From Bacteroidota bacterium (GTDB lineage Bacteria; Bacteroidota; Bacteroidia; B-17B0; Aurantibacillaceae), in assembly GCA_021323535.1 (NCBI GenBank), contig JAJONO010000033.1, forward strand, positions 1-47,634: a DNA stretch of 47,634 nt. The letters are read 5' to 3'. Numbering within the stretch: the first letter of the stretch is position 1; the number at the start of each line of letters is the position of its first letter. The position numbers were made by a program, and so were the translations under genes. Below the pieces are notes generated by a model that did no database searches, was not told the DNA's origin, and worked only from the letters and a program-made list of their open reading frames with translations. Below, piece after piece: positions 32,769 to 37,561 of this stretch.

Positions 32769-34196
32769 TTATTCCAATATAAGTTTCTTAATGAATTGAT
32801 GTGGACCAGAATTTATTTTCAGAAAATAGACTCCTTTTGAAAACCCGTTTAAGTTCAGCGATTTTATTCCTACTCCAAGATTCATTTTGTTTTCATAAAC
32901 TTTCTCCCCTAAAACTGTCAGAATATTTACCTCCGCGTCTAGCGCTTCATTACTATGGTATTCTAAATTAATCATCCCGGTGGAAGGGTTAGGATACACC
33001 GCTAAATCGTCTTTCATTTTATATTCGTGTAAACCAACCGCCGTATTCTGGTTAAGTTTTGCAACAAACAGATCACTATAAGGATCATTCCCTGTCACTG
33101 TTATTGTATCGAATTGGTGCGTAGCAGCAATGACACCCGCTAAAAAAATATTCTGATGCTTATCCATCTTAGCGCAATACGGATAAACAGTTTTGTAAGA
33201 CCCTGTTGTTTGCTTTGCCGATAAAAGAAAACCATTCTGATGTACTTTCAAAAGCACCATACTTAATGATGCTGTAAGAACAGTATTCTGAAACTTCATA
33301 TGATCCCACACGGTTCCTCCCAGGTAAATATTATTATCGTTATCATGAAACATTACTGATAGTTTTCCATACGTCTTGTGCGTAATAAGCGTGCTCCAGA
33401 TCTGGTTTCCCTGAAGATCCATTTTTTGAAATGTAGTTTTGGCTACATAAGTAAAATCGTAAACTGTTTTAGTGAGGTAAACTGTGGCATTGTCATCCAC
33501 GTCAAGAAGATAATATCCCACCGGCTGTGTATGTTGAGATAAAACGGGTGCAGTAACAAGGTTCCCTGTAGAGTCTATAACCAGGAGTTTAAGAACATAC
33601 TGCTGGTTCACGAACTGTTCCCGGAGTGCATAGGTAACTTCGTTCTTATCGCAGGTGAAGGGAGAATTGTCGCAGCCGTAAGAATCTCCTTTACGTAACC
33701 ACAGTTCTGTTCCATTGGTGTCGTACATTGCAAACACCGAAGTGTCGCAGGTACCACTGCCTGTAAATCCTGCCACCACAATTTTTCCCGAAACTGTACT
33801 TTTAATTTGGTTAAAGGAATAATTCCCGGTCACTTTGGTCCATAACAATTGTCCATTATTATCTATTTTTTTAATTGTTGCCGCTGAGATTAGAAAAGTG
33901 TTTCCGTTTCCATCTATAGCACTTTTTAAATAACCCTGGCCAATTGTATCCACCCACAGAAGACTTCCACCTGGCGCATACTTTAACAATAGGTTATAAC
34001 TAACCCCCGAGATCTGGCCAGACGAAGGGTTTCCGTGTTTTAGCGTCACATAAACATTGCCCGAGGTATCGGTTCCCAAATTATCGGGGTTCTCAAGAAA
34101 TCCTTCTTTTGGTCCAAACGTTTTAACCCATTCGTAGGCTTGGGAATTAACTGAGATGGAGAGCAATAATAAAAATGAAAGTAAAAACTGTTTCAT
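32769..34196 (-). CDS. Secreted SBBP/propeller-like protein with T9SS type A sorting domain
   Basis: 475 residues with signal peptide 1-19 (FLLSFLLLLSISVNSQ). Residues ~22-385 hold repeated strands of the kind in Bacteroidota beta-propeller repeat proteins: YEWVKTFGP, SGNVYVTLKHG, NGQLLWTKVTG, DNDNNIYLGG, DKHQNIFLAGV. The T9SS domain begins near 400: LAVYPNPSTGMINLEY, VNILTVLGEKVYENK, FSKGVYFLKINSG, ending KKLILE. No enzymatic motif is seen. Its 5' end faces the DUF6265 lipoprotein gene across a 65-base gap. Confidence 0.9.
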   Translation of the reverse strand: MKQFLLSFLLLLSISVNSQAYEWVKTFGPKEGFLENPDNLGTDTSGNVYVTLKHGNPSSGQISGVSYNLLLKYAPGGSLLWVDTIGQGYLKSAIDGNGNTFLISAATIKKIDNNGQLLWTKVTGNYSFNQIKSTVSGKIVVAGFTGSGTCDTSVFAMYDTNGTELWLRKGDSYGCDNSPFTCDKNEVTYALREQFVNQQYVLKLLVIDSTGNLVTAPVLSQHTQPVGYYLLDVDDNATVYLTKTVYDFTYVAKTTFQKMDLQGNQIWSTLITHKTYGKLSVMFHDNDNNIYLGGTVWDHMKFQNTVLTASLSMVLLKVHQNGFLLSAKQTTGSYKTVYPYCAKMDKHQNIFLAGVIAATHQFDTITVTGNDPYSDLFVAKLNQNTAVGLHEYKMKDDLAVYPNPSTGMINLEYHSNEALDAEVNILTVLGEKVYENKMNLGVGIKSLNLNGFSKGVYFLKINSGPHQFIKKLILE

Positions 34197-35635: not shown

Positions 35636-35655
35636 TCCGGAAAATCAATAAAAAG

Positions 35656-35690
35656 AAACCCCGTGGCATTACACACGGGGTTTTTTATTT
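35656..35690 (+). terminator. Intrinsic terminator of the TerB-like gene
   Basis: AAACCCCGTG (35656-35665) pairs perfectly with CACGGGGTTT (35674-35683) around an 8-base loop, and a T-rich tract follows to about 35690. It lies 20 bases after the TerB-like stop. Confidence 0.92.
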
Positions 35691-35786: not shown

Positions 35787-36770
35787 TTAATCCGTCTTTA
35801 TAATTTTCTTCGTAACTGAAGATTTTTCTGTAGAAAGTTTCACAAAATAAATTCCTGACTCAACTTCACTTAACGACAACATTCCATTTCGTTTTACCAT
35901 AACACCATCAAGGATCTGTTTTCCTGAAACGTCCGTCACTTCAACTTTCAGATCTTCTTCTCCTGCCACAAACACATTCACGTTTCCTGAGGTTACATTC
36001 GGAAACAAACGTACTTTCTTTTCCAGATCTGAATTTTCTGTTACAGATACCGGAACCTGGTTAATAACACCAACTGCATCAAGATCAAATCCGCTCGATC
36101 CAAAGGCCGTGGCCCAGGGATCATTGATCTTATTACTGTTTTTGTCATAAGTGGCGTATTGAGCCTGTATGCAACCCACAGCGTCAATAATCTTTACGTG
36201 GGTAATGGCATTGATATCTAATCCACTTGTACCATTCAATTGCTGCAGATCGAAAGGAACACCATAATTCATGATGTACTTTCCTGCCAGGTTATCAATC
36301 TTTGTTGGGTCGCTGCTCGTATCAAATGGACCAATCTGCACCGTGTTCTGCACATTACATGTTGCCGGGAAACGTGTAAAATTTGTACCGTCGCTGCTAA
36401 CCTCAACAAATGCGAGTTCAAGAAATCCCGCGTCGAAAGAATTTTCGAAAACACAGAAATCCGGTCCTGGTGAATTTTTGATAGGCGATTGAAATGTGAG
36501 AATGGCCGAGCCCGCGTCGCCCAGGCTTACTACATTCACACCATCAGCTACACCAATGGCCTTGCTGCTGTCGCCTACATTTGCATAACCTGCACTTTGA
36601 TTACTTACATCCTGGTAGCCCCGTATCACTTTACAACCTGTGGCCCAGTTAATAATAATAGAACTGTCTTTTTTTATCGCTGTTGTTCCGGGCTGTCCCG
36701 CCGCCGGAGCGAATTGCGCATTCACAAAAAACGGAATGCTGACGATTAAACTTAAAAATCGTTTTTTCAT
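35787..36770 (-). CDS. T9SS-sorted surface protein under cobalamin riboswitch control
   Basis: 327 residues with signal peptide 1-18 (FLSLIVSIPFFVNAQ). The body (~20-240) has the pattern of a Bacteroidota cell-surface family: WATGCKVIRGYQDVSNQSAG, VVSLGDAGSAILTFQSPIKN, GPDFCVFENSF, LAFVEVSSDGTNFTRFP, and DINAITHVKIIDAVG. Residues ~252-327 are a T9SS type A domain (VRLFPNVTSGNVNVFV, VTDVSGKQIL, ESGIYFVKLST). The gene stands alone behind a cobalamin riboswitch, so its synthesis should fall when B12 is plentiful. A role in capturing or handling corrinoids at the cell surface is inferred from that control. In Bacteroides, B12-binding surface proteins such as BtuG are part of riboswitch-controlled uptake loci. 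Repeat-like ccacagaacagagaccacag follows its stop. Confidence 0.9.
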   Translation of the reverse strand: MKKRFLSLIVSIPFFVNAQFAPAAGQPGTTAIKKDSSIIINWATGCKVIRGYQDVSNQSAGYANVGDSSKAIGVADGVNVVSLGDAGSAILTFQSPIKNSPGPDFCVFENSFDAGFLELAFVEVSSDGTNFTRFPATCNVQNTVQIGPFDTSSDPTKIDNLAGKYIMNYGVPFDLQQLNGTSGLDINAITHVKIIDAVGCIQAQYATYDKNSNKINDPWATAFGSSGFDLDAVGVINQVPVSVTENSDLEKKVRLFPNVTSGNVNVFVAGEEDLKVEVTDVSGKQILDGVMVKRNGMLSLSEVESGIYFVKLSTEKSSVTKKIIKTD

Positions 36771-36858
36771 AAAAAACGATACGATTTACCTCAAAAAATT
36801 TATAGATTTTTTAAGTCCCTGCCCTGTATCGCGAAAGCAGAATTAAAATTAAACATTG

Positions 36859-36991
36859 CTAAGACAAGTATTCCGACTTCCATAAAGCAGAAATTATCTT
36901 CGATAATTACGCTTCATGATCACGGTTGCGCGCCAGCTCCTGAATTGCACAGGATTCCTTTTTAAAGCTTACTCAAGCATCTTAACCTTAG
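36859..36991 (-). ncRNA. Cobalamin (B12) riboswitch
   Basis: On the minus strand the conserved core is present: AAAAAGGAATCCTGTG leads to CAATTCAGGAGCTG, then CGCGCAACCGTGATC (36918-36963), with CCTG/CAGG as the P3 stem. The B12 box is GAAGTCGGAATACTTG (36865-36880). Flanking CTAAG (36987-36991) and CTTAG (36859-36863) pair to close the element. A variable hairpin-forming stretch lies between core and B12 box. The start codon of the T9SS gene at 36770 is 88 bases downstream. In that leader CGATAC and GTATCG can pair just before a T-run and the ATG, a possible expression platform. The element is shorter than average but complete in its landmarks. Confidence 0.93.
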
Positions 36992-36993
36992 AA

Positions 36994-37022
36994 CAAATAT
37001 AGAAATTTTTTTATGGCACAAA
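36994..37022 (-). promoter_or_regulatory. Promoter of the cobalamin riboswitch transcript
   Basis: On the minus strand TTG (37019-37021) is followed after 17 bases by TATATTTG (36994-37001), a perfect match to the Bacteroidota -7 consensus. Predicted transcription starts a few bases later, exactly at the 5' edge of the riboswitch. Confidence 0.7.
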
Positions 37023-37072: not shown

Positions 37073-37561
37073 TTAGAAAGAATCTTCAAGCACCACCATT
37101 TTAATGGCTGTAATTGCGGCTTCATCACCTTTATTACCATGTTTTCCACCTGCGCGATCAATGGCCTGCTGTTGATCATTGGGAGTTAATACACCAAAAA
37201 TAACCGGTGTACTGTGTTCAATATTGAGTTGGGTAATACCATTAGCGACTGCATTGCAGATAAAATCAAAGTGGCGTGTTTCTCCTTGTATTACGCAGCC
37301 AATGCAAATCACCGCGTCGGCTTCCGTGTTTTCGAGCATCCATTGTGCGCCAAGTGTCAGTTCAAAACTTCCGGGCACTGCTTTCACAATAATATCGTCA
37401 ACCGCAACACCATTCGCTACAAGCGTTTTAAAAGCGCCATCTTTCATGGCCCCGGTAATTTCCTCGTTCCATTCGGCCCAAACAATTCCGAATTTGTAGC
37501 CGGCGGCATTTGGTACCGATGAGCCTTTGCTCCAGGAGAGATTATTATTTACACTGCTCAT
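37073..37561 (-). CDS. ribH: 6,7-dimethyl-8-ribityllumazine synthase
   Basis: 162 residues, cytoplasmic. It condenses 5-amino-6-ribitylaminouracil with 3,4-dihydroxy-2-butanone 4-phosphate in riboflavin synthesis. Family motifs are intact: IVWAEWNEEI (Trp31-Asn32 region), VPGSFELTLGAQWM, CIGCVIQGETRHFDFI with catalytic His97, PVIFGVLTPNDQQQAIDRAGG and the C-terminal KGDEAAITAIKM. It normally assembles into a 60-mer or pentamer. Other riboflavin genes are absent nearby. A terminator-like hairpin sits between this gene and the TPR gene upstream; no FMN riboswitch is seen. Confidence 0.97.
   Translation of the reverse strand: MSSVNNNLSWSKGSSVPNAAGYKFGIVWAEWNEEITGAMKDGAFKTLVANGVAVDDIIVKAVPGSFELTLGAQWMLENTEADAVICIGCVIQGETRHFDFICNAVANGITQLNIEHSTPVIFGVLTPNDQQQAIDRAGGKHGNKGDEAAITAIKMVVLEDSF

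Follow-up and report, generated by a model that had tools for sequence, protein, structure and literature searches.

We found that the window, by which we mean the whole 47.6-kb stretch of Bacteroidota DNA analysed here (47,634 nucleotides), carries a cobalamin riboswitch followed by a single gene for a secreted surface protein. This protein recurs across Bacteroidota as what appears to be a component of B12 uptake, apparently not described before, and in the window its gene is on its own; homologues of its core are found with a riboswitch in 76 of 110 loci, with btu-type genes in 55, and fused to DUF4465 in two. It probably serves as an accessory surface protein of B12 (corrinoid) uptake, which would be exported by the type IX secretion system (T9SS) and repressed by corrinoid, and whose discoidin-like core probably binds corrinoid or partner proteins.

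The earlier note, made from the DNA letters alone, had described a promoter, a cobalamin riboswitch and a lone gene for a signal-peptide protein with a T9SS sorting domain, with no TonB receptor nearby, and this description of the locus held throughout (Table 1). RF00174 is the sole Rfam family over any cut-off in a cmscan of the whole window (E 1.3e-9, model positions 1-189), and the motifs quoted for the riboswitch are present in the sequence. The promoter reads exactly as described, with TTG at 37021-37019, then 17 bases and TATATTTG at 37001-36994 on the minus strand, and follows the Bacteroidota-type consensus; in an alignment of 15 aptamers, TATATTTG is likewise what the majority of letters spell at the 5' end. 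The start of the protein is signal-like by eye, and its Por_Secre_tail exceeds both curated cut-offs (PF18962, 43.6 bits against 27; TIGR04183, 48.9 bits against 23), which together with the SprA protein encoded in the same genome (2365.6 bits) places it among T9SS type A cargo. Profiles of BtuB, DUF4465 and DUF5074 found no match at E 0.001 among the window ORFs of at least 60 aa. A ribH-like gene (named by eye) lies upstream on the same strand and ends at 37073, and a terminator-like hairpin follows downstream; thus, the gene looks monocistronic. A second protein of 475 aa with a T9SS-type tail, recognized by eye, is encoded at 32769-34196.

Table 1. Features of the riboswitch locus, in window coordinates.
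Feature	Position	Strand	Basis
Bacteroidota-type promoter TTG-N17-TATATTTG	36994-37021	-	direct reading of sequence
Cobalamin riboswitch aptamer, RF00174	36846-36999	-	covariance model, 50.0 bits against cut-off 31.5
L5 loop letters CGCG, predicted L5-L13 kissing contact	36929-36932	-	complementarity to L13
P13 hairpin, 3' of aptamer; loop L13 CGCGATAC at 36826-36833	36818-36841	-	
Anti-L13 element GTATCGT	36776-36782	-	complementary to L13; functional role hypothetical
Start-codon hairpin ATCGTTTTTT-ATG-AAAAAACGAT, sharing letters with anti-L13 element	36758-36780	-	functional role hypothetical
Gene for 327-aa secreted surface protein	35787-36770	-	ORF; aligned with 37 homologues
Signal-peptide-like N-terminus, residues 1-18	36717-36770	-	by eye; model helix 2-15
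Core domain, residues 19-241; nearest solved fold BtuH B12-binding domain	36048-36716	-	predicted structure
T9SS type A C-terminal sorting domain	35796-36008	-	PF18962 and TIGR04183
Terminator-like hairpin AACCCCGTG...CACGGGGTT followed by a T-run; flanking genes convergent	35650-35682	-	read from sequence

The genome (5.3 Mb) holds two RF00174 matches in all. The second, on contig C113 (90.5 bits), precedes genes for a TonB-dependent receptor of 649 aa, a DUF4465 protein with a T9SS tail (324 aa; DUF4465 131.9 bits) and a BtuG-like DUF5074 protein (342 aa, 84.2 bits); hence, the organism has a B12 uptake set, located away from the window. It also encodes the B12-dependent methionine synthase MetH.

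Recurrence of the core gene in B12 loci

Core homologues were detected in 37 of 60 genomes, the own one included, at 38 loci. RF00174 exceeds its cut-off upstream and on the same strand in 22 of these, at a distance of about 0.5 kb or less in 18 and, with intervening genes, of 1.6 to 3.2 kb in four. The gene order is riboswitch-BtuB-DUF4465-core protein in genome G038, riboswitch-BtuB-DUF4465-core protein-DUF5074 in G047, and riboswitch-another gene-core protein-BtuB-DUF5074 in G040. A scan of public genomes returned at least 473 encoded relatives, the best 80 of which, added to the 37 neighbourhoods, gave 117 loci and, after removal of seven duplicates, 110 distinct cores, a sample that leans toward close relatives. 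All 117 loci were searched with our riboswitch model R1, which contains only five base pairs and so behaves essentially like a sequence profile. In each of the 76 positive distinct loci the match lies upstream on the same strand; 13 of the 76 contributed to R1 and match by construction, and the two weakest matches (L123, E 0.017; L111, E 0.054) are left out of the count. At least one of BtuB, DUF4465 and DUF5074, counted with domain-only profiles, is encoded on the same strand within 8 kb in 55 loci, short contigs being scored as lacking genes that possibly lie beyond their ends.

Taken together, 87 of the 110 loci possess a riboswitch or btu-type genes and 23 possess neither. The riboswitch is accompanied by BtuB, DUF4465 and DUF5074 in 24 loci, by BtuB and DUF5074 in eight, and by none of the three in 32; BtuB and DUF5074 are found without it in seven, and each of the remaining sets accounts for four loci at most. 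At least 3.5 kb is available on each side in 23 of the 32 riboswitch-only loci and in 14 of the 23 loci with neither. An even sample of 295 genomes of the class yielded 91 strong core matches in 90 genomes; among the matches listed, at least 46 of the 91 lie within 6 kb of a DUF5074 gene and at least 31 have RF00174 about 5 kb or less upstream, as judged by eye. In two loci DUF4465 and the core are naturally fused into one protein (L107:5946-7610 and L128:4315-6096). No relatives of the 327-aa protein were found in the viral contigs searched. The check named in the earlier note thus came out in its favour: homologues are found repeatedly downstream of cobalamin riboswitches and next to btuB-like genes. 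This linkage gives good support to a role at the surface in acquiring corrinoids; we consider it very probable that the core protein belongs to B12 acquisition.

Seven same-genus lone homologues (L043, L047, L048, L053, L054, L056, and L058) are without a recognizable riboswitch, and B12 control has therefore been lost or replaced there; an unfiltered riboswitch search of 11 same-genus loci with neither riboswitch nor btu genes gave a best E of 0.12. Two same-genus relatives (L042:7984-9159 and L060:8045-9256) encode an in-frame fusion in which a cysteine-rich CWC domain (PF14375) comes ahead of the core protein's signal region, and in other same-genus relatives (L038, L039) a separate small CWC ORF is seen by eye between the riboswitch and the core gene. 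Nine genomes of family f3 (G038, G084, G120, G152, G183, G213, G240, G291, and G314) gave ten core matches each, with ten candidates scored; the matches are mostly weak and lie in long proteins, which suggests an expansion of the superfamily in this family. A 262-aa lipoprotein-like gene (L176:9373-10161) adjoins a BtuH-type gene in what by eye is a Bacteroides-like btu locus.

As for the origin of the lone gene, a quickly built tree of 111 cores shows lone and operon genes interspersed. The operon label requires 11 changes on this tree, against a shuffled mean of 37.5; with the root placed at the midpoint, the deepest branches are those of operon genes, and 52 of 108 inner branches have weak support. 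Such a tree fits a repeated separation of the core gene from the operon. Five relatives (L034, L036, L037, L049, and L059) retain the recF-tpr-ribH neighbourhood seen in the window (gene names assigned by eye), and L035 retains its tpr-ribH part. In L137 a complete btu operon is found beyond recF-tpr-ribH, and in L145 a btu operon lies beside recF; these positions are perhaps a trace of the old arrangement.

Predicted fold and likely role of the core

No Pfam family covers the core of about 220 residues in the window protein, and at E 0.01 Pfam gave no match in 80 of 81 cores, with a stray DHQ_synthase match (E 0.0032) in one. The core was modelled alone, since a fold search with the full-length protein was largely filled by the T9SS tail; the full-length model also retrieved 8blw_B at Z 10.3. 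The core-only model (pLDDT 95, pTM 0.93) has the BtuH-domain fold by VIA-align, run on Foldseek candidates, where both top-ranking chains come from proteins that bind B12: BtuH2 (7biz_A, Z 12.6, rmsd 3.4, 159 aligned residues, 17% identity) and the C-terminal BtuH region 392-660 of BtuG1 (8blw chain B, Z 11.2, rmsd 3.5, 161 aligned, 19% identity). PAPP-A and CBM32/discoidin-like folds come next, with Z values no higher than 10.4 and some 128 residues aligned, and BtuJ structures are absent among the VIA-align matches listed. Foldseek itself found nothing for the core at E 0.001 or less in the PDB, with 8blw at rank 11 and 7biz absent among the 50 matches listed, and the notable matches in a PDB search by sequence, with the single protein and two profiles, are T9SS tails.

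By sequence the tie to BtuH is short. A BtuH homologue found in genome G068 was confirmed by sequence against 7biz and 8blw. Aligned with hhalign against six BtuH domains, the core scores 35.2 (E 2.1e-4, probability 46) over only 35 columns, above the best of 30 column shuffles (20.8). Six further proteins (L161-L166), whose examined surroundings of 8.7 to 16 kb contain no BtuB, DUF4465 or DUF5074 genes, align with the core at a score of 135 over 132 columns and with BtuH at 36, about equal to the core. BtuH as a label for the family was consequently rejected, the profile similarity being short and BtuH matching L161-L166 about as well. Among the BtuH residues that contact B12 (Q333, N399, H476, Y510, W511, and W577), only N399, along with F401, falls within the short aligned block. 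Asn399 and Phe401 of BtuH2, described as contacting B12 (PMC8941943), align with the conserved N110 and F112 of the core; as the pair is also present in L161-L166, outside btu loci, it appears to be no B12 signature. In turn, an NDPW-T stretch found in 75 of 81 cores and in none of the six L161-L166 proteins may mark a function of the family's own. A cautious interpretation places all of these in a single large discoidin-like superfamily, with BtuH as a solved B12 binder and the present family as a separate branch that is tied to B12 by its genomic setting; its weak sequence ties to BtuH are common to proteins outside btu loci.

According to the proposed mechanism, the riboswitch would be empty and the protein made when corrinoid is scarce; when corrinoid is plentiful, the aptamer would bind it, the L5-L13 kissing contact would form and expression would fall. 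Exported to the surface by T9SS, the protein would, most likely, use its discoidin-like core outside the cell for binding corrinoid, or corrinoid-loaded partners of the BtuJ/BtuG type, and would help to hand the vitamin on to BtuB. That the core itself binds corrinoid is a somewhat favoured possibility. The protein might instead belong to B12 uptake and bind no corrinoid, acting as a scaffold or assembly partner that holds BtuJ or BtuG near BtuB, or as an aid to vesicle release like BtuL. Operon linkage and the DUF4465 fusion fit such a partner equally well, and BtuL, a co-regulated product of the B12 operon of B. thetaiotaomicron for which a role in vesicle release has been proposed, did not bind cobalamin (PMC12751083); operon membership is therefore no proof of binding. 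We consider a non-binding partner unlikely, however, for the closest solved fold is that of a B12-binding domain and in the window's clade the gene is alone, apart from the other components.

A carbohydrate- or cell-binding domain of the discoidin/CBM32 kind, placed under B12 control with no role in B12 uptake, would agree with the many CBM32/discoidin folds found at Z 8 to 10, with the homologous domains in L161-L166 that lack nearby BtuB, DUF4465 and DUF5074 genes, and with the 23 loci without a B12 link; yet the riboswitches and btu-type genes counted above go far beyond stray coupling and the NDPW-T stretch separates the cores from L161-L166, which makes this explanation quite improbable. 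Beyond the favoured accessory role in corrinoid uptake, a bolder version can be put forward tentatively, as a possibility that we would not bet on. The core would be an unrecognized corrinoid-binding family and a recurrent fourth surface part beside BtuB, BtuJ and BtuG, B12 binding having evolved within the discoidin-like superfamily; in the window's clade it would have left the transporter operon to act as a scavenger exported by T9SS, with its own translational riboswitch, in which L13 either kisses L5 or pairs with an element that would otherwise mask the start codon.

Riboswitch and leader RNA

The kissing contact between L5 and L13 is a known feature of cobalamin riboswitches. We surveyed it in 77 riboswitches, of which 64 were counted, as no L5 was found in 11 and two false L5 matches were excluded. 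The letters of the two loops are complementary in 58 of the 64, the window's included: CCCG/CGGG in 41, CGCG/CGCG in 16 and TGCG/CGCA in one, with six imperfect pairs. An L5 of CGCG always goes with an L13 of CGCG (16/16), and an L5 of CCCG with CGGG in 41 of 47 cases, CGTG in three and CGGA in three. The two loops covary, which supports the predicted L5-L13 contact. It is very improbable that the window's riboswitch is a decayed relic with a constitutive or silent gene. In favour of a relic, its 50 bits are low against the 90.5 of the genome's other copy and the clade aptamers are mostly short; against it, the CGCG/CGCG letters are retained in all eight clade members and no stop interrupts the gene at any of the 38 homologue loci.

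The eight leaders of the window's clade, all of lone genes, share an element of GTAT followed by CG, TG or CA, which ends 5 to 13 bases 5' of the start codon and overlaps a predicted start-codon hairpin. Counting G-U pairs, the complementarity of this element to L13 extends over seven letters in seven leaders and over five in the eighth. Compared with shuffles, the complement gives a p of 0.02 to 0.09 per leader and 0.49 in the eighth, or 2.4e-4 combined with kinship ignored. Outside the clade, where the CGCG rule located L13 in 10 riboswitches and in none of the other 59 of the 77, exact complements reach at most five letters. The overlap suggests translational control in the window's clade, a proposal whose chances we put at about even: with B12, L5 would hold L13 and the start codon would be masked, and without B12, L13 would capture the anti-L13 element. 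The computed energies place the L13:anti-L13 state 2 to 10 kcal/mol above the start-hairpin state in stability terms, that is, less stable, in seven of the eight leaders, so the model requires co-transcriptional folding or else is wrong; in the leader of L059, L13:anti-L13 is the most stable state. Computed AUG exposure changes in no consistent way across the eight leaders.

Comparison with known B12 proteins

Binding of B12 by DUF4465, BtuG and BtuH proteins is published (PMC13398666, PMC12751083, PMC8941943), with cobalamin binding described for BtuG, BtuH, BtuJ and BtuK1 (PMC12751083) and B12 binding for eight DUF4465 members (PMC13398666). A C-terminal targeting motif is reported in 38% of 824 members of IPR027828 (PMC13398666, PMC12751083); secreted B12 binders with C-terminal tails are therefore already known as a kind. 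In Flavobacterium psychrophilum a cobalamin riboswitch precedes a TonB-dependent transporter (PMC9723704). In the papers cited here, the focus is on the Bacteroides lipoproteins BtuG, BtuH, BtuJ and BtuK and on DUF4465, and we found no description of the core family in the listed titles and abstracts of open-licence PMC papers. The family has no Pfam entry and recurs in B12 operons across many Bacteroidota, so that a Pfam-based neighbourhood study like that of DUF4465 (PMC13398666) would miss it. Capture of B12 at the surface matters in competition among Bacteroidota, and, should the core bind corrinoid, one purified domain would be enough to put a missing part of the B12 uptake system to the test.

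The earlier note had gone on to propose a surface role in corrinoid capture, possibly as a T9SS counterpart of BtuG. The surface role in corrinoid acquisition is well backed by the linkage to riboswitches and btuB-like genes; the BtuG-type identity is not supported, as the window protein gave no PF16819 (DUF5074) match even with E values of up to 10 allowed, the predicted fold is different, and the DUF5074 protein of the genome is encoded in the btuB-type operon elsewhere. BtuG/DUF5074 is a component of the same operons as the core genes, but it is a different domain and a separate gene in the same genome. Similarly, BtuJ/DUF4465 (PF14717, IPR027828) shares operons with the core genes, is fused to the core in the two loci given above, and is a secreted protein that in many cases has a C-terminal targeting motif (PMC12751083), whereas PF14717 matches neither the window protein, with E values of up to 10 allowed, nor any of the 81 cores at E 0.01, and DUF4465 has a gene of its own both in these operons and in the window's genome.

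BtuH of Bacteroides (BT_1488, BT_1956, and the C-terminal region of BT_1490) resembles the core family in its riboswitch-controlled btu loci, in being the closest solved fold and in the common block VSLG..G...F...I.N..G.DF....N.F. It differs in the low identity of the structural alignments and the short profile match, in keeping only the N/F pair of its binding residues within the aligned block, and in its lipid anchor, in place of which the window protein has a T9SS tail behind a compact core of 220 residues. The LIC_13355 lipoprotein family (NF033170) and L161-L166 share with the cores the block VSLG.GG...F...I..G.G.DF.VFEN.F, and NF033170 is matched by 63 of 81 cores at E 0.01 (best 5.9e-9), but the window core reaches just 21.4 bits against a cut-off of 120, and L161-L166 are without the NDPW-T and KDSS stretches of the family as well as without its btu-type gene neighbours. 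Finally, the riboswitch agrees with RF00174 in its full-length match over the cut-off and in its complementary L5 and L13 letters, and departs from it in being a short variant found in this clade, whose kissing letters are CGCG/CGCG and whose anti-L13 element overlaps the start-codon hairpin.
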